Assembly: GCA_038040445.1 (NCBI GenBank)
Contig: JBBPIG010000008.1
Span: forward strand, 1-64,000
Source: Acidobacteriota bacterium
GTDB lineage: Bacteria; Acidobacteriota; Blastocatellia; UBA7656
DNA: 64,000 nucleotides
Direction of reading: 5' to 3'
Made by a program: the position numbers and the translations under genes. The notes under the pieces were generated by a model. It was not told the DNA's origin and made no database searches. It saw only the letters and a list, made by a program, of their open reading frames with translations. Positions 10,678-35,311 of the stretch are shown one piece after another. Every line of letters begins with the position of its first letter. Within the stretch, counting starts at the first letter, position 1.

Positions 10678-10701
10678 TTCTTTCTCCTTCCATGGGCGTC
10701 C

Positions 10702-10804
10702 CTGGGAGCGCAGGCATCCTTGCCTGCTCGTAGCCTGCTCTTACAGCAACCGGGATTTCCTTGCTTGAGCAGAAGCGGGCAGGCAGGGATGCCTGCGCTC
10801 CCAG
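10702..10804. repeat. REP-like palindrome with 26-bp arms
   Basis: Arms at 10702-10727 and 10779-10804 are inverted copies matching at 25 of 26 bases. Each contains GGGAGCGCAGGC and a GC-rich follow-up. The arms enclose 51 bp with further GCCTGCT / AGCGGGC self-complementarity. A degenerate single arm recurs at 23955-23979. It lies between two divergent genes. It looks like a dispersed palindromic repeat. Confidence 0.75.
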
Positions 10805-10872
10805 GCCATTGTGTCCTCCCCCGCTTCTGTGATTATATTGTTCGCCAACAGACAATCAATGGAGGCGCTTGA

Positions 10873-18132: not shown

Positions 18133-18293
18133 GAGGGTTTCGGGTTCAGGGTTCCGGGTTTCAGAGTTAAGGGGTGGAGTTCACGGTTCGGGGTTCAGAG
18201 TTAAAGTCGGTGGGCTTCCTCAGCGAACCTTGAACCTGAACCTTGAACCTTGAACCTTGAACCCTGAACCCGGAACCCGGAACCCTGAACCGT
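18133..18293. repeat. Word-repeat palindrome (GGTTCAG-type)
   Basis: The left half repeats words such as GGGTTCAGGGTTCCGGG. The right half repeats AACCTTGAACC and ends CCCGGAACCCTGAACC, the complement. The whole gap between the kinase stop and the FHA start is this element. As RNA it would form a long imperfect hairpin between two genes of one operon, and could uncouple their expression or stabilise a transcript end. Confidence 0.7.
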
Positions 18294-19955
18294 CTAGTCC
18301 AACTTCACGTACTGGCCATCTACCCAACCGCTGTCTGGAGCGTTGTCGGGAGGGCTACCGGCCCACTCCAAGACTTTGACTCGCCGCCATCCTCCACGCT
18401 CTTCAACGATCCGAACTCGCGTTCCGGCTGGAAGAGAAACGAGCACCGCGCCCGCCGGATCGCTTCGCAGGTTGACGTTTTGCGCGCCGCCAATTCGCCC
18501 GTCCTTCGCCTGCGAACCCGAGAACGGGATCCAGGGCTTCTTCTGATCGGCAAAGTGATAGTAGGTAGACGCGGCAAGTCCGATCAGCGCTGCCGCTAAA
18601 AAAATGATGAACACTCGCCGCAACCACTCCGAGCTGATTACAACTCGCAGCTTGCTCAACAAGCCTTGTTCGGCGCGGAGTGTCTGTGCGCTCGTCTGCC
18701 TCGCGCGCAGAGTCTTGACGGCGTGACCCTCTCCGGATGATGCAACCGCTACTACTGCATTGCCGTCGCGCGTCTGAATGCGGGGACCGGTCGAAGGTTC
18801 GGCGGCGTTCCGAGACCCAAAAGTTTGAGTCGCAAATGAACCGGCATCAGAATCAACGTGTTCCCCCGCTCCCCGGCTCCCCGGCTCCGCGGCTCCCTCA
18901 TTCGCCAGGCGATGGTAACCGGCGTGACCTGGCAACTCGACAACTATTCTCGCCTTCTGTGGGCGAATGATTTCGCGAGGCACATTCGCCAGCGTTTGGA
19001 AGTTGGGAAGCGGGGCAGCCTGCTCAACCATGCTCGTGGCGCTCAAGCGCGCCCGTACTATCGTGGCCTCGTCGTCAACCTCCTCGCCGATGTCTCCAGC
19101 CAATCGGACCTTCGCCAGGTTTTCCCAGAACTCCTCCATTGATTGATAGCGGTCGGCGACTCGCGTCGCGGTTGCCTTGGCCAGCACCGCCAGCAGGCGC
19201 CCGGACCACGGTTCAGACGCAAGCCCCACGGGAAGCTCGCCGATCGGTTGTCGCGAAAACTGGCGCGGCGCCCGCCCGGTCATCGCGGTGTAGATCGTCT
19301 TTGCAAGCGAATAGACATCGGCCGACGGGGTGAGCTTTTCGTTCGCGTCATCAGCCCTGACATCGGGATGATGCTCGGGGGGAGCGTAGACGTTTGTGCC
19401 GACACGGGTGATCTCGCTGGCGTCATCGTGAGTCATCTTGGCGACGCCGAAGTCGGCGATTTTCAACACACGGCGGTCCGCGGACAGCAGCAGGTTGTTC
19501 GGCTTGATGTCGCGATGAATGACTCGCTCGCTGTGCGCATAGGCGAGCGCCTCGGCCACTTGCTGAAAATAAAACAGCGCGTCGTCTAGACCGACCGGCC
19601 GGCTGCGGCACAGTGACCACAAATCTCCCCCGGGCATGTACTCGAGCACGATGTAATGAAAAGGCACGCCTTCAAGATCGGCGGCGGTGCCATGGCCGAG
19701 CCTGAGAATTATGTTCGGGTGCCGCACGCGGTCCAGCGCGATGGCTTCGTTCTGAAAGTTCTCAACCAGCGTCTGTTCCAGCTCCGGGTCGGGCGTTCCC
19801 TGAAGCGAGGTGTTTAGCGACTTGATGATCACCGGCTCACCGTCGCCCAGTTGATCGTACGCAAGAAAGATCTCAGCATAGCTTCCGCGTCCCAGGCACC
19901 GCTCCACTAGGTAACGATCGTCAACCACGCTGTTGTCTAGTCTAAGTTCAGGCAC
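18294..19955 (-). CDS. Transmembrane Ser/Thr protein kinase with SH3-like C-terminus
   Basis: 553 residues. The Hanks-type kinase domain has the glycine loop GRGSYAEIF, K45, catalytic HRD (147-149), DFG (168-170) and the APPE motif. A juxtamembrane linker contains VDDEATIVRAR with T298. A low-complexity Gly/Ala/Pro stretch near 355-365 is encoded by a CCCCGGCT word repeat. One membrane helix lies at about 448-467. The periplasmic SH3-type domain (about 490-553, NVNLRSDPAGAVLVSLPAG) typically binds cell-wall material. It sits between PP2C and FHA genes, so the three form a phosphorylation switch. Confidence 0.93.
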   Translation of the reverse strand: MPELRLDNSVVDDRYLVERCLGRGSYAEIFLAYDQLGDGEPVIIKSLNTSLQGTPDPELEQTLVENFQNEAIALDRVRHPNIILRLGHGTAADLEGVPFHYIVLEYMPGGDLWSLCRSRPVGLDDALFYFQQVAEALAYAHSERVIHRDIKPNNLLLSADRRVLKIADFGVAKMTHDDASEITRVGTNVYAPPEHHPDVRADDANEKLTPSADVYSLAKTIYTAMTGRAPRQFSRQPIGELPVGLASEPWSGRLLAVLAKATATRVADRYQSMEEFWENLAKVRLAGDIGEEVDDEATIVRARLSATSMVEQAAPLPNFQTLANVPREIIRPQKARIVVELPGHAGYHRLANEGAAEPGSRGAGEHVDSDAGSFATQTFGSRNAAEPSTGPRIQTRDGNAVVAVASSGEGHAVKTLRARQTSAQTLRAEQGLLSKLRVVISSEWLRRVFIIFLAAALIGLAASTYYHFADQKKPWIPFSGSQAKDGRIGGAQNVNLRSDPAGAVLVSLPAGTRVRIVEERGGWRRVKVLEWAGSPPDNAPDSGWVDGQYVKLD

Positions 19956-29121: not shown

Positions 29122-29292
29122 AGACGCAGCACGCTTGCCTGCATCAGTCTGCGTATGCTTCGGGACGGAAGCATTGTATGACCAACTATGCGACTAACGA
29201 GACAACCGTCGTGACGCTGTTGGATAGCAGATGTTTCCAATCCAAGCGATCCTACAGTACAATGCGGCTTCCAATCATTGGGAGCGAATACT

Positions 29293-30567
29293 GTGCACAA
29301 GGCTTACCGGTTCGTACTGGGATTTGACGACGACCTTGTCGCTAGCACACTTGAGCGCCTTGGCGCCTCGAAGAGACATTCTGTCCTAGATCCTTTTTCC
29401 GGGACCGGCACGACACTAGTCGAGTGCAAGAAGAGAGGTATCGACTCAATCGGGTTCGACGCGAATCCGGTCTGTGTTTTGATCTCCAAAGCCAAGCTGG
29501 ATTGGGGCATAGGGGCCCGCCGAATCGAAGAGTCGGTCAAGGACATCGTCAAAGCATTTGATCGCAGGTATGCAGCTTATCTCCGGGCTTATAGACTACG
29601 AAAGAGAACAAACCAGTACTACTCACCACTTGAGCATCCGTTGTTCGAGCGAACGACCGCTGGAAGATTTCTTATTGAGTCGGGTATTCTGAAGCGCGGC
29701 TGGATGAGCCCTCGCCCTGCGCTCAAAACCCTGCTGCTTACGACTGTGATCAATGAACGCGTCGGAGATACTCGAACTCAGCGGTTCCTGCTGACGTCTC
29801 TTCTTGATTTGTTAGTGCCCGAGATTAGCAATATGCGGTACGGACCTGAGATTTACAGGGCAGTAAGAAGGCGAGATGTCGACGTGATAGGTCTATTCAA
29901 AGAAAGAGTGCAAGCGAATCTTTCGGTTCTGAATGAACTGCGCCAGGGGTGCCGCGCGTTTCCTTCATCTAGCGTCTCTCTGGGGGATTCAGTAAACGGC
30001 GGCCTAAATACCATACGAGATAGCTCGTTAGATTTCGTGGTCACCTCACCTCCCTACCCTTCAGAACATGATTACACTCGCCTAACAAGGCTTGAGTTGA
30101 TCTTCAGTGGCTTTGTTTCTGAGAAAGCGGACATTCGAACTATTAAGCAGAGATTGCTGCGTTGCTGCACGCGCAACATATATTCGGGAGACAATAAGTA
30201 CAAAGACATCTCACGATTCCGCAGTGTTCGGGGTCTTGTAGACAGAATTAGCGAAGAGGCCCAGAACCATTCCCATGGCTTTGCCAAGCTATACAGCCGC
30301 GTAGTAGAAGAATACTTTGGGGGAATGTTTTGGCACTTCCAGCACATTGCTCGCGTCTTGCGCTTAGGTGGCAGGTGCGCCTACATTGTCGGAGACCAGG
30401 CCTCCTTCTTTTCGATTCAGATCAAGACAGCTGAGCTACTCTCACGAATAGCAACATCCAAGGGTGTCGGGCTCCGCGAGATAGAGGCGGTTAGGCTCAG
30501 GCCGCTCAGGGGAACAACGGGACGGCAGAACTCCAACTATGAATGGCTTCTCATCCTTGAAAAGTGA
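29293..30567 (+). CDS. Site-specific DNA methyltransferase
   Basis: 424 residues from GTG 29293, with GGGAG eight bases before it. The AdoMet-binding motif I is DPFSGTGTTLVECKKRGI (about 33-50). The catalytic motif IV TSPPYPSEHDY (about 251-261) identifies an amino-methyltransferase of N4-cytosine or N6-adenine type. Motif I precedes motif IV, and a helical insert of about 190 residues lies between. The C-terminal GGRCAYIVGD and SNYEWLLIL complete the fold. It is the first of three closely spaced co-directional genes and its base composition looks less GC-rich than neighbouring genes. Target sequence is unknown. Confidence 0.88.
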   Translation: MHKAYRFVLGFDDDLVASTLERLGASKRHSVLDPFSGTGTTLVECKKRGIDSIGFDANPVCVLISKAKLDWGIGARRIEESVKDIVKAFDRRYAAYLRAYRLRKRTNQYYSPLEHPLFERTTAGRFLIESGILKRGWMSPRPALKTLLLTTVINERVGDTRTQRFLLTSLLDLLVPEISNMRYGPEIYRAVRRRDVDVIGLFKERVQANLSVLNELRQGCRAFPSSSVSLGDSVNGGLNTIRDSSLDFVVTSPPYPSEHDYTRLTRLELIFSGFVSEKADIRTIKQRLLRCCTRNIYSGDNKYKDISRFRSVRGLVDRISEEAQNHSHGFAKLYSRVVEEYFGGMFWHFQHIARVLRLGGRCAYIVGDQASFFSIQIKTAELLSRIATSKGVGLREIEAVRLRPLRGTTGRQNSNYEWLLILEK

Positions 30568-30651
30568 AGATTCCTTCGCGTGTCGGGAGCGCACAAAAAG
30601 AAACCGTGCCGACGGGATCACTGCTGGCTAGCGCAGAGGGGGGAGAACACT

Positions 30652-32249
30652 ATGGCTAAGATCAAAGTACACGAGAAAGCACTCGCACACCTTAGTCGAG
30701 GTCTTTACAGAAGCCCAGCCAGTGCCCTTCGCGAGCTGGTGAGCAACGCTTGGGACGCAGGTGCTACCGTTGTTCGCATCAATACAAACTACCCCTTATT
30801 TTACCAACTGTCCGTAGAGGACAACGGAGCAGGATTCACTAGAGAGGATTTCGAGAACCTAATGGAAGGAGGCGTCGGGAACAGCGAGAAAAGAACAGCA
30901 GCCGAACCCGAGCCTCTTCCATTTGACCGCCCCCTTATTGGCAGGTTGGGAATCGGGTTGTTGGGTATAGCTCAAATCTGCGGTGCGTTTACCATTGTTT
31001 CCAAGCCTAGTCACGGAAACGGGTTCAGAGCGAGCGTACGCCTCTACGATTTGCTAAAGGAGCGCCTCGACAGAAAGGATAGCGAGCTTGTTAAGGAGGT
31101 CGAGGTCAAGGAGGCGCAGTCAGAGACTGCACCTAAGCCCGACGAGAGCGGGCAGCAAACGATAACAGAAGTTGATATCGGAGAGTACTCGTTCGAAGAC
31201 TACGACGAAGCTGCCTATAAGAGAGGAACGCGAATAACGGCCGACGACGTTCACCCTACTTTTGTGGATACATTTCAGAAGTCGCTGAAGTTTGAGAAAT
31301 TCAAACCGCCGCCGCTCGACTGGTCCAAGGCTCTAAAAATTGCTTCGTCCGTCCATTCATTACAGGAGCTCGGAGACTATTGGAAACTACTATGGGAGTT
31401 ATCGGCGTCATGCCCGCTCACCTTGGCGAGCAAGCACTGCCGCGCAAGCTCGTTGCGGATGAGCAAGTCAAGCTTGAAGGCTACAGGTTTAGAGTGTTTG
31501 TGGATGGGAGACAGTTGTTCAAACCAGTCAGGCTTCGCGGCAACCCTGGGGGATATACGATAAAGGCGATAGAATCGCAGCACGTCAAAATCTATGGCAA
31601 GAACCTTACGTTCCACGGGTACATCCTTGTTCATGAGGGATTGAGCATCAAACCCGACGAACTCCGTGGCATATTAATCAGGATCAAGAACGTCAGCATC
31701 GGGTACTACGATCCCTCAATGTTGGACTATAGATTCAACGAAGGTCCGAGAAGCCGCTGGCTCACTGGTGAGATCTTCGTAGATGAAGGCTTAGAGGATG
31801 CTCTGAACATCGACCGAGATAGCTTCAACCGCTTTCATCCTCAGTTTCGGGCTATTCAAAACTATGTCCACAAGGTGCTTCGAGAAGAAGTGTTTCCTGA
31901 AGTCTATAGGAAGATTGAGGACCGATCCTTAGATCGAGAGATTACAAGAGAACAAGCCCGTGAAGAACGGCTGGCCGCGACGATTGCTAACGTTGTGAAT
32001 TCACCCGTCAAGGTACGTGAGCGGGCGAAAGCTCAACCAGATGAGTTGCCAACAGTCGAGATAGTAGACAAACCTAACGCGATGGAAGTTGTCTTGCCGC
32101 GTGTCGATGAGTTAGAGACAAAGCGTCCCAACCGGCAGCTTGCTGCCGCGATGCTAACTATTTACGAGGTCGCTCTGCGGGAGAGAACTCGCGACAAGCA
32201 ACGTTCTGCATTTACGAGACTCCTGCTCGATTTACTCTCTAAGTGGTAA
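30652..32249 (+). CDS. GHKL (HSP90/MutL-like) ATPase, frameshifted
   Basis: From ATG 30652 (GGGGGAG upstream) the Bergerat ATP-binding fold is clear: N-box ELVSNAWDAG (28-37), DNGAGF (57-62) and GRLGIGLLGIAQ (97-108). The frame breaks near 31420, and the protein continues one base back as GEQALPRKLVADEQVKLEGY through DIDRDSFNRF-like NIDRDSFNRFHPQFRAI to LLDLLSKW. Joined, it is about 532 residues. One missing base explains the break and I see no slippery site. It is either a sequencing error or a recently inactivated gene. Related GHKL ATPases act in DNA repair, chaperoning and some phage-defence modules. Confidence 0.8.
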
Positions 32250-32265
32250 CGGGATAACTACCGGA

Positions 32266-33417
32266 ATGTTCAAGTACGAAGATGATCTCCTAAAGCACTA
32301 TGTCAGGCTGGAGGGGTGGCTGCCAGCGTGCAAGAGGCGCCAAAGATTTGTTCGTTCGGCGGCGAGTAAGCCAAAATCCCTTAGGCGTCTGCGATATTTT
32401 ACGTTTTGCGCGGTGGGGGCGGTGGACGTGTTGATGCTCGACGTTGAAAAGGTAATCAGGGTGTCCAGCGACGGTAGGTTCGACACCGTCGCATTCTTTG
32501 ACAAGGACCCTGAATCTGTTGCCGAGACTCTTAAGAGAATCCCTGGGGCTAATGGGTTCCCCGGGGACTTCACTACCATAGTTCTTATGGAAGACCCAGA
32601 CGAGGAAACAGTGCTAGCAGATTCTCAGGTTTTAGAAGCACGCCGCGAAGAGTTAGATGAGTATCTCACCCGCCGCCGCCAACTACGGCTCGGGCAGCGC
32701 CGTGATTTCATCAGACTTTTCCCTTTCGATGTAATCAACCTCGACTTGGAGGAATTCCTGTTTAAGCCTAACGACCCCTTACCAGGTAGAGTTATCAACT
32801 CGCTTCGCAAGGTCTTCGAATGGCAGCGACGTCCCGTGTCTACAGTTCCGCGGCAATCTACGCAGAGTCTTAGTGGATTCAGCCTGATGTTTACGACTCA
32901 AATCGGGCCACCCAATATCGGTGAGGACTACTTGCGAGAGTTGCAGGAGTGTCTTGAAAGTAATCTCGCCGATGATACAACACTCGGCGAGGCACTGGCT
33001 GCTCGCACTGGTTACGGTGACGTGGCGGCGCTCCAGCAGGGAAACTTCGACAGTTTCTTTGAGCTGTCCGTGCCTAAGACGATTGCCGCAGTTTTAGAAG
33101 AGGAGGACTGGCACGTTGACCCAGAGCGCGGCATAACCATCTTTGAATTCGAGCGTCCTTGGAAGCAAGGCACCTACAAGATGTTACACTTGGTTATGGA
33201 CGTCACGCGAAACAGTCCACCAAGAGAAAAGAGAGCTCCAGGAAGGCGGTGTAGACAGGCGCGACTGGCCTATCGATCTGTCGTACGCCAGCTATTCTCT
33301 GATCAGGTGGATTTGGTGACACCTGAGGCTTTAGATGAGAACTTCTTGCGCGCTAGCCTGGAGCTAATCAAAGCGCGAAGAAGAGAATATTATTCAGAGG
33401 AAGAAGACAACGCCTAA
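32266..33417 (+). CDS. Uncharacterised methyltransferase-like protein
   Basis: 383 residues, starting 16 bp after the GHKL gene. No close family is recognised. The first 180 residues look like a Rossmann methyltransferase fold: RYFTFCAVGAVDVLMLD (motif I region), TVAFFDKDPES (acidic second strand) and FPFDVINLDLEEFLFK (motif IV-like Asp). The style resembles TcmP-like three-Cys-motif partner proteins. The C-terminal half (EWQRRP onward, LMFTTQIGPPNIGEDYL, EEEDWHV) is unassigned. Tight spacing with the ATPase suggests one functional unit. Confidence 0.6.
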   Translation: MFKYEDDLLKHYVRLEGWLPACKRRQRFVRSAASKPKSLRRLRYFTFCAVGAVDVLMLDVEKVIRVSSDGRFDTVAFFDKDPESVAETLKRIPGANGFPGDFTTIVLMEDPDEETVLADSQVLEARREELDEYLTRRRQLRLGQRRDFIRLFPFDVINLDLEEFLFKPNDPLPGRVINSLRKVFEWQRRPVSTVPRQSTQSLSGFSLMFTTQIGPPNIGEDYLRELQECLESNLADDTTLGEALAARTGYGDVAALQQGNFDSFFELSVPKTIAAVLEEEDWHVDPERGITIFEFERPWKQGTYKMLHLVMDVTRNSPPREKRAPGRRCRQARLAYRSVVRQLFSDQVDLVTPEALDENFLRASLELIKARRREYYSEEEDNA

Positions 33418-33488
33418 GCTTTCCTTCCGCGAGAACTGCCCCTTCTCGCCGCCGAGCCCTCGCTGGCTACTGGTTTGGCGCGGGGCCG

Positions 33489-33590
33489 TTAACAAAGATT
33501 AGGAATGCTCGCGAGATGTGCAGCGGTGAGTGGCTTCACTTTCATTGCTTGCTGAGAGAAGCCAGGCGGTTTTGTCGCTTCAGATGGAGA
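33489..33590 (-). pseudogene. Duplicated 3' end of the 34349 hydrolase gene
   Basis: The minus strand reads NRLASLSKQ, then one frame over MKVKPLTAAHLASIPNL and a stop. The intact hydrolase ends DRLAFLSEQLNVKPLTAAQLASILDLY. About 100 bp of the hydrolase 3' end is therefore repeated here, directly after the three-gene cassette. It occupies part of the 241-bp gap 33418-33658. Confidence 0.7.
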
Positions 33591-33658: not shown

Positions 33659-33994
33659 TTAATTCAGAACCCAGACGCCGCTCTCATGAATTGCGTCGTA
33701 CATCGCGTCCGGCGCGAGATCAGCGCCGCCGGGCCACTGGACCGCGCCCATGACGACTCGCGCGCCAGCGAACACGGCGGGGTGGCGTAGCGGCTCGAAG
33801 ACTGTGCCGTCGACCTTACTACTACTGAGAAACTCCCGCATATCTACCTTCCCCGACGTGCCATCGACGAACGTCACTTGCAATTGCTCGTTCGGTAACA
33901 CGGTCACCGAAGTCACTCGCCAGGGGACGGTGTGACTGATCTCGGGCGCTACTTCAAAGGCTCGATCGGTCTCGGGGTTTGCAGTTGACTGCAT
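33659..33994 (-). CDS. DUF2442 domain protein
   Basis: 111 residues from ATG 33994, with GGAGG ten bases before it. VTSVTVLPNEQLQVTFVDGTSGKVDMREFL and LAPDAMYDAI are DUF2442 hallmarks. These proteins commonly pair with DUF4160 as a presumed toxin-antitoxin-like module. The DUF4160 partner is present here only as a truncated remnant overlapping this start. Confidence 0.85.
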   Translation of the reverse strand: MQSTANPETDRAFEVAPEISHTVPWRVTSVTVLPNEQLQVTFVDGTSGKVDMREFLSSSKVDGTVFEPLRHPAVFAGARVVMGAVQWPGGADLAPDAMYDAIHESGVWVLN

Positions 33995-34112
33995 AGGTTC
34001 CAATCCTCCATCAGTTCTTCACGATGCTCGGCCGCCCACTCAAGTACCAAAGCCATCGCGCGGCGCGGCAACGTACCCCGCAGCACGCTAAGGTCGCTAA
34101 ACAGTATCACGC
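33949..34112 (-). pseudogene. Truncated DUF4160 gene
   Basis: The frame gives DLSVLRGTLPRRAMALVLEW and AAEHREELMEDW, the C-terminal half of DUF4160, ending at a stop 33949-33951 inside DUF2442. The N-terminal half is missing and replaced by sequence leading into the 171-bp palindrome. Confidence 0.75.
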
Positions 34113-34125
34113 AAATACCGCCGGA

Positions 34126-34296
34126 CGGCAGTCGGGGGATTGTTCATCCACAGCCTACACCAGCGGCGCACAAGAGGCTTTCGGAGTTCCTCTCGCGCGC
34201 GCCCCTCGCGCCGCGAGGGGCGCGCGGGAGAGAAACCAAAGGAGAGGAACTCCGCTCTTTCCTGTAGGCTGTGCATGAACGATTCCCCAACTGCCG
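34126..34296. repeat. 171-bp nested palindrome
   Basis: Three nested inverted segments: an outer arm CGGCAGT...TCATCCACAGCCTACAC paired with GTAGGCTGTGCATGA...ACTGCCG, a middle GGAGTTCCTCTC paired with GAGAGGAACTCC, and an inner GCGCGCCCCTCGC paired with GCGAGGGGCGCGC. The whole element could fold into one long stem. It contains no coding frame. It lies at the edge of the accessory island. It may be a non-autonomous mobile element or a recombination scar. Confidence 0.75.
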
Positions 34297-34348
34297 TTGG
34301 GGGGATTTAACACAATCTCTGCTGTTGGGGGTATTGGACGTGCTGGCC

Positions 34349-35311
34349 CTACTGTTTCGGTTCGGGCGGCTGATACAGATCGAGGATGCTCGCGAGTTGT
34401 GCAGCAGTCAGTGGCTTCACGTTGAGTTGTTCACTCAAAAACGCCAAGCGGTCGCGGCGGGCTTCGGCGTTCAACGCATGTGGCGCGTCGTACAGCTTGA
34501 ACCGCTTGGGCTCGCTCACGATTGCCGCGTACTGCCGTGCTCCATCCGGCGTCAGATACTTTTCCTCGGTCGCGTACTGCATGAAGACCACCGCTGGCGC
34601 TGCGTGAGACACGAACTTGCCGGGATCAAGCCAGGTGTACTTGGCTATAAAAGCGTCGAACCGTTCCGGGCCTATCTTCTGGCGATACTCCTCGTAGTTC
34701 TTCGCTTTCATGTCCACTTCATCTGAGAGGCCGCCGGCCATCAGCACAAACGCTGCAAAGCGCCTATCGATGCCGCTGAGGAAGCCACCTACCGTCGCGT
34801 TGTAGCTGTGCCCGACGTATGCGATGCGCTTCGGGTCGACGTCTTTGCGGGCAATTAACAAGTCGACGCCGCGCCGCATGTCTACGATCTGCTGCACGAG
34901 GTCATCGGCTTGCTGGTCGTTCAGAGGTTCGCGGTTCTCTACGTGACCGGGACGCGCTACAGGTCCGTCTGTGAGCAATGAGACAACACCCGAATGGGCG
35001 AGCGCCACGGCCTCGTCGAGAAACTCTTTGCGATTGCGCATTGGCGAGTTCTCCCAGTACCAGTGTCCCCAGATCACGGCGGCGAACGGGCCTGCGCCTT
35101 TCGGCACGACGAGGTAGGCGGGAACGCGCCCACCTTTTGGACTCGCGTAGGAGATGTCGTGGATGGCGATGTCCCCTCGTCGCTCGACCCCGATTTCTTT
35201 GACGTCGAGTTTCGTGTTCTTATCGTAGTCAAAACGGCGAAGCAAGTCCGCGTCTTGAGCGAACAACGGTGAAACACTAGTCAACAGAATGAGAGTGAGT
35301 GTGAGCCACAT
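34349..35311 (-). CDS. Secreted alpha/beta hydrolase (dienelactone hydrolase-like)
   Basis: 320 residues with a signal peptide (MWLTLTLILLTSVSPLFAQ). The alpha/beta hydrolase core shows the nucleophile elbow GHSYNA (S169) and a C-terminal His in YDAPHALN (H278). AYLVVPKGAGPFAAVIWGHW forms the oxyanion-side strand. The substrate is unknown, perhaps an ester or peptide in the periplasm. AGGAGGTCC precedes ATG 35311. A partial copy of its 3' end lies at 33489-33590. Confidence 0.85.
   Translation of the reverse strand: MWLTLTLILLTSVSPLFAQDADLLRRFDYDKNTKLDVKEIGVERRGDIAIHDISYASPKGGRVPAYLVVPKGAGPFAAVIWGHWYWENSPMRNRKEFLDEAVALAHSGVVSLLTDGPVARPGHVENREPLNDQQADDLVQQIVDMRRGVDLLIARKDVDPKRIAYVGHSYNATVGGFLSGIDRRFAAFVLMAGGLSDEVDMKAKNYEEYRQKIGPERFDAFIAKYTWLDPGKFVSHAAPAVVFMQYATEEKYLTPDGARQYAAIVSEPKRFKLYDAPHALNAEARRDRLAFLSEQLNVKPLTAAQLASILDLYQPPEPKQ

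Follow-up and report, generated by a model that had tools for sequence, protein, structure and literature searches.

A REPIN-like palindromic repeat family in Blastocatellia (Acidobacteriota) and its probable mobilisation by a fused IS200/IS605-type TnpA

Introduction

The REPINs of Bertels and Rainey (2011; PMC3116915) are, in the accessible part of that paper, dispersed elements in which an inverted pair of REP units and the spacer between them fold as one hairpin with compensatory changes, and they are associated with a Y1 transposase gene. REPtrons, as the available parts of PMC6006769 and PMC8266576 describe them, carry a TnpAREP (RAYT) gene between cognate REPs, which occur dispersed through the genome as well. 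The spread of REP sequences is called poorly understood in the available part of PMC8266576. GTAG-tagged REP units arranged as tail-to-tail pairs, with the GTAG inward and with structured spacers, are reported from other bacteria in the available part of PMC3733652, as are REP dimers inside longer palindromes; no Blastocatellia family was found in that part. The TnpA enzymes of the IS200/IS605 group (IS608, ISDra2) share a Y1/HUH domain, a Y...Q signature and hairpin ends with the system described here, and they supply its sequence and fold matches. However, the matched enzymes are single-domain proteins, whereas ours has two domains with complementary catalytic loss and its REPs are also dispersed without the gene.

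The element studied here lies in a 64,000-nucleotide stretch of soil-bacterium DNA (the window) and belongs to a known general kind, the REPIN-like mobile repeats. Like REPINs, it has inverted units that form one hairpin, many dispersed copies and a Y1 gene flanked by cognate REPs. It differs from them in its length (about 200 bp), in a conserved inner palindrome and in its transposase, which is of the IS200 type with two fused domains. The tail-to-tail pairs with inward GTAG recall the GTAG-tagged dimers, but the tag sits some 14–18 nt from the hairpin foot and not directly at it. Furthermore, the enzyme shares the REPtron layout with TnpAREP but scores below the cut-off of the curated RAYT model and above that of the IS200 model. 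Thus, we describe the system as one that works like a REPIN or REPtron but is run by an IS200-type enzyme. The enzyme is also its unfamiliar part. No description of a tandem Y1 TnpA was found in the literature searched, which included the available parts of PMC6006769 and PMC8266576 and covered subscription journals thinly, so that this is weak evidence of novelty. The fused transposase is the novel component of the system and possibly of more interest than the palindrome.

Results

The initial annotation of the window described a 171-bp palindrome (34126–34296) made of three nested complementary segments that form a long hairpin. The palindrome is real and all three segments are present, as outer arms, middle arms and an inner palindrome (Table 1), but its extent was set too short and grows to ~200 bp in the family alignment. 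Likeness between copies (17–18 compared) stops near AAT.CC / GG.ATT. The minimum free energy of positions 34100–34320 is −130.3 kcal/mol, against −76.5 ± 4.6 in 200 dinucleotide shuffles, none of which folds as low (z −11.7). No 200-nt tile of the window comes near this stability, with −130.2 for the 200-nt element and −92.8 for the best of 319 consecutive tiles.

Table 1. Coordinates of the palindromic element, its parts and its neighbours in the window.
Feature	Position	Strand	Size and complementarity	Basis
Whole nested palindromic element, REPIN-like	34113–34312 (approximate ends)			Similarity among 17–18 copies and fold
Outer arms	34118–34159/34263–34304		42 nt, 83%	
Left REP unit: hairpin stem and tail GATTGTTCATCCACAGCCTAC, CTAC inward	34118–34158	+		Alignment and pattern match (34131–34158, 3 mismatches)
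Middle inverted repeat, left and right halves	34182–34194/34242–34254	+	13 nt, 100%	
Inner palindrome arms	34186–34210/34212–34236		25 nt, 92%	
Inner palindrome, tip CTCGCG(C)CGCGAG	34186–34236	.		Conserved in long form of element
Right REP unit, inverted, GTAG inward	34264–34304	−		Alignment and pattern match (34264–34291, −, 2 mismatches)
DUF4160 gene fragment, N-terminal half missing	33997–34107	−		Match of 33955–34107 to PF13711 positions 32–65 of 65, E 1.5e-9
DUF2442, intact neighbour	33659–34003	−		PF10387

The DUF4160 gene was reported as truncated at the palindrome, and the fragment is indeed broken within 15 bp of the element. The profile match covers only the second half of the domain, so the N-terminal half is missing; it starts at ~34098, 15 bp from the element, and a DUF4160-like frame can be followed by eye to ~34107. 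Beyond the DUF2442/DUF4160 fragment, as seen from the hydrolase gene, positions 33462–33570 partly duplicate the 3' end of that gene in direct orientation (34342–34452; 82 of 112 positions, 73%), which suggests duplication or rearrangement of the stretch that holds the cassette. Farther away, a DNA methylase (PF01555, a PADLOC type II MTase), a GHKL ATPase, perhaps split over two overlapping frames (30580–31563 and 31380–32249), and an unknown 383-aa protein form a cluster (29278–33417) that looks like a restriction or defence island. The window holds other repeats as well: inverted arrays of degenerate heptamers similar to GGGTTCA / TGAACCC (18133–18294; 65-nt arms, 71% complementary) and a palindrome with the sequence CCTGGGAGCGCAGGCATCC... 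(10701–10805; 30-nt arms, 93% complementary). A string similar to the latter stands beside a REP cluster in locus L010, and it is possibly another dispersed palindromic repeat.

The element is not confined to the window. A 28-base REP pattern, allowing up to 3 mismatches, matched 75 places in the genome that holds the window (39 + 36), on 19 contigs and in 31 clusters, with none for the reversed-pattern control (0 + 0). BLAST searches of this genome with the element returned 44 places at E ≤ 10 and 26 at E ≤ 0.02, and both counts cover the query and its own reverse complement. Full-length nested elements number at least nine, with more in the genus mate G001 and in G006, a member of another genus. 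Among the 162 genomes of the class Blastocatellia, 13 have the REP pattern: besides the 75 units of our genome, there are 42 in G001, 25 in G002, 333 in G006 (pattern control 0), 20 in G142, 15 in G141, 6 each in G027 and G144, 4 in G157, 3 in G133 and one each in G081, G132 and G138. One genus offers both extremes, with 333 units in G006 and none in G003. Relatives identified through protein searches bear the names Blastocatellia and Pyrinomonadaceae, which makes an origin of the window in the class Blastocatellia very probable. The initial annotation would have been undermined by a single, nowhere conserved copy or by arms diverged without compensation; what we found instead is dispersed copies with compensatory changes.

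Each REP unit consists of a hairpin (e.g., CCACCAAC GCA GTTGGTGG) and a tail ending in GCCTAC. Units within 1 kb of each other (n = 44 neighbouring pairs in our genome) are arranged +− in 21 cases, ++ in 11, −− in 12 and −+ in none, and the clusters (+−, ++−−, ++−, +−− and others) bring units together tail-to-tail. G006 has a few −+ junctions, so the orientation rule is not absolute. All nine long elements examined in our genome enclose an inner palindrome whose tip resembles CTCGCG-N-CGCGAG, and the exact tip of the window copy recurs in six other long elements of this genome. We also considered the inner palindrome as an independent dispersed element: its 13-base tip matched 12 places in our genome and the reversed control 10, a count that is uninformative by itself, and at least 7 of the 12 lie within long elements (C1, C8:34205, C8:190584, C11, C20, C23 and C49).

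We aligned 17 long elements, 8 from our genome, 4 from G001 and 5 from G006; the C1 copy (L004) was omitted because its right REP has diverged, and diverged relatives such as L011, L017 and L020 also stand outside the alignment. Both arms and the inner palindrome are kept with compensatory changes across these 17 full elements. Standard pairs fill 94.5% of the 728 pair cells, compared to 36–44% when the partner is slid, and changes on both sides affect 10 of 43 pairs (34 cells versus 12.1 ± 2.9 in shuffles; 0 of 500 as high). Much of this covariation comes from the REP subtypes GTTGGTGG, GTGGGTGG and GTTGGGGG; it thus indicates that the arms are kept alike and, alone, is no proof that the long hairpin is used. 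The motif GTAGG is invariant in 17 of 17 rows.

Seven Y1_Tnp matches were found in our genome. A gene on contig C4 (G000:C4:67855–68691; L028:1353–2192, minus strand) codes for a protein of 279 amino acids with two Y1 domains in one chain, and lies between three + REP units (67701, 67769 and 67833) and five − units (68738–69363). G142 has REP units beside its fused gene in the same +, gene, − layout, and REP-like reading frames stand beside several other homologues. Homologues of the fused gene occur in 9 of the 162 genomes of the class (E ≤ 1e-15), that of G016 being a fragment only; a sample of 396 genomes from the phylum yielded 3 (E ≤ 1e-35), every one of them a member of the class. Across the 162 genomes, 6 carry both REPs and the gene, 7 the REPs only, 3 the enzyme only and 146 neither (Fisher p 5.6e-6, a test that ignores kinship). 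The genomes with REPs in which no fused gene was found at E ≤ 1e-15 are G001 (42 units), G141 (15) and five others, and the REP pattern is absent from G022, G145 and G016, which carry the gene or its fragment. A second fused copy in our genome (L029, G000:C3:210277–211091) is broken by a frame change. The repeats next to it are different ones, which show up in translation as recurring PNRKVG-type strings.

This distribution also bears on the possibility that REP units multiply passively, by slippage, gene conversion or recombination, and that the fused Y1 protein has no part in their spread. REPs in genomes without the fused gene would fit such a process, and the ++−− clusters could be tandem duplications; however, the dispersal of the units over 19 contigs, their inverted layout and the embedding of the gene in the same REP units in several genomes make it unlikely.

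The fused protein resembles IS200/IS605 transposases. Its PDB matches comprise 8 distinct sequences, all transposases of the IS200/IS605 TnpA kind. It scores 149 bits against the NCBIfam IS200 model NF033573 (cut-off 55) and 49 bits against NF047646, the REP-associated transposase model (cut-off 80). An AlphaFold model built from six sequences has two TnpA-like domains that resemble the ISDra2 and IS608 enzymes; with a pLDDT of 70.6, a pTM of 0.63 and values below 50 in the linker region, it leaves the packing of the domains unsettled.

For 15 loci, we scored the catalytic residues at positions set by the C4 protein, leaving gaps out; some of these loci are truncated or frame-broken (the C3 copy, L156, L163 and L164). 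In domain 1, the second HUH histidine is kept in 0 of 13 sequences (R in 10; Q, L and A once each), and Tyr122 (13/13) and Gln126 (14/14) are invariant. Domain 2 keeps the HUH pair His207 and His209 (14/14) and has tyrosine at the catalytic position in only 2 of 12 (F in 8, W in 2), a position that corresponds in the alignment to the mutated residue of the ISDra2 Y132F structure (2xo6). Thus, the HUH motif and the catalytic tyrosine with a glutamine four residues on are complete over both domains together and, as a rule, in neither alone, and this complementary loss holds across enzymes down to about 36% identity. The TnpA dimers of IS608 and ISDra2 have their active sites arranged in trans. 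The complementary loss across such diverged enzymes predicts one composite active site per chain, formed by the tyrosine of domain 1 and the HUH residues of domain 2, like one half of the IS608 or ISDra2 dimer.

Occupancy by the element varies between relatives. At C4:229.7 kb, G001 carries the matching REP pair at the equivalent position but lacks the inner palindrome (84 versus 30 bases between the same two landmarks), a difference consistent with either insertion or deletion of the inner palindrome. The genes on either side of the element at C11:198.3 kb align in G005, a genome without any REP match, and the element is absent there. The element on C49 is missing from aligned stretches upstream of the right-hand gene in six relatives, where the left flank is not conserved. 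The initial annotation had proposed a search for empty sites with target duplications. The element has inverted ends, and none of the sites compared gave a clean empty site or a resolvable target-site duplication: the intergenic stretch of the C11 site is too diverged in G005 for either to be read, the flanks of three G006 elements matched G003, G004, G005 and G002 in a single 50-base stretch with no orthologous site, and a search of 58 genomes with 1653 bp around the window site matched only hydrolase parts (G016, G008 and G040) and repeats, with no orthologous locus for the two flanks together.

Several copies lie in the middle of a further palindromic repeat (GTGCGCGTCAG...GAAAACTCCGG and its inverse), and this repeat is also found by itself, enclosing a plain hairpin. 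If these outer palindromes were the terminal inverted repeats of a DDE-type transposon, the element would be a MITE and its REP-like part only the centre. The outer palindrome does recur independently, at 35 places of our genome at E ≤ 0.01 (with a query that also held part of the REP end), sometimes around a simple hairpin without REP tails. Yet no more than a short trace of it is seen at the window copy, and it is lacking from most REP clusters, whereas the REP units are constant, as is their inverted layout, and the Y1 gene lies inside them, which renders a MITE of this kind quite improbable. A second palindromic repeat family, with the sequence GTGCGCGTCAGATTTTCGCGCATCACCTCTGACAGAG... (L123–L149; e.g., G000:C21:113139 and C3:338560), occurs either by itself or enclosing REP elements.

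If the element were a structured RNA or transcription terminator, retained for a regulatory role and copied by chance or recombination, the strong hairpin with compensatory changes and the intergenic position would be explained. This reading is very improbable: no element was seen at the C11 site in G005 or, in six relatives, upstream of the C49 gene, compensatory changes are also expected from REP subtypes copied as units, and an Rfam scan of the whole window gave 0 matches at the gathering score. The last result leaves the RNA gene suggested in the initial annotation without support, and nothing was seen that points to a phage or plasmid recombination site, its other suggestion.

Discussion

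The remaining suggestion, a non-autonomous mobile element, is well supported: the copies are dispersed, their palindromic anatomy is conserved and shows compensatory changes, occupancy varies between relatives, and REPs of the family flank a transposase gene. We put at roughly three in four the probability that the palindrome is a non-autonomous REPIN-like element of a Blastocatellia repeat family and is moved in trans by the fused IS200/IS605-type TnpA.

We infer its mobilisation, cleavage and strand preference as follows. Two inverted REP units, each a short hairpin whose tail ends in CCTAC, stand tail-to-tail on either side of the inner palindrome of the long form, and in single-stranded DNA the whole element would fold as one long hairpin. 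The fused TnpA, encoded elsewhere between the same REP units, may then recognise the REP hairpins at both ends of the element on single-stranded DNA, probably that of the lagging strand. Its single composite site, with the catalytic tyrosine from domain 1 and the HUH metal site from domain 2, would act like one trans site of a TnpA dimer. By excising, rejoining and reinserting the unit, the enzyme could move any stretch bounded by tail-to-tail REP units. The window element would thus correspond to a REP-transposase-REP unit with the inner palindrome in place of the gene.

The ++−− clusters and the outer palindromes hint at a tendency of new copies to insert within existing ones. A broader and more tentative proposal, which we regard as somewhat doubtful, is that a single-chain TnpA pseudo-dimer with one composite site spreads tail-to-tail REPs into existing palindromes. 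Nesting would then build from the centre, as a REPIN in a REPIN (++−−), an inner palindrome in a REPIN or a REPIN in an outer palindrome.

A natural TnpA with one active site in one chain would provide a REP system beyond the usual RAYT groups, in the Acidobacteriota. It would also make it possible to test directly which cuts and transfers depend on two sites.
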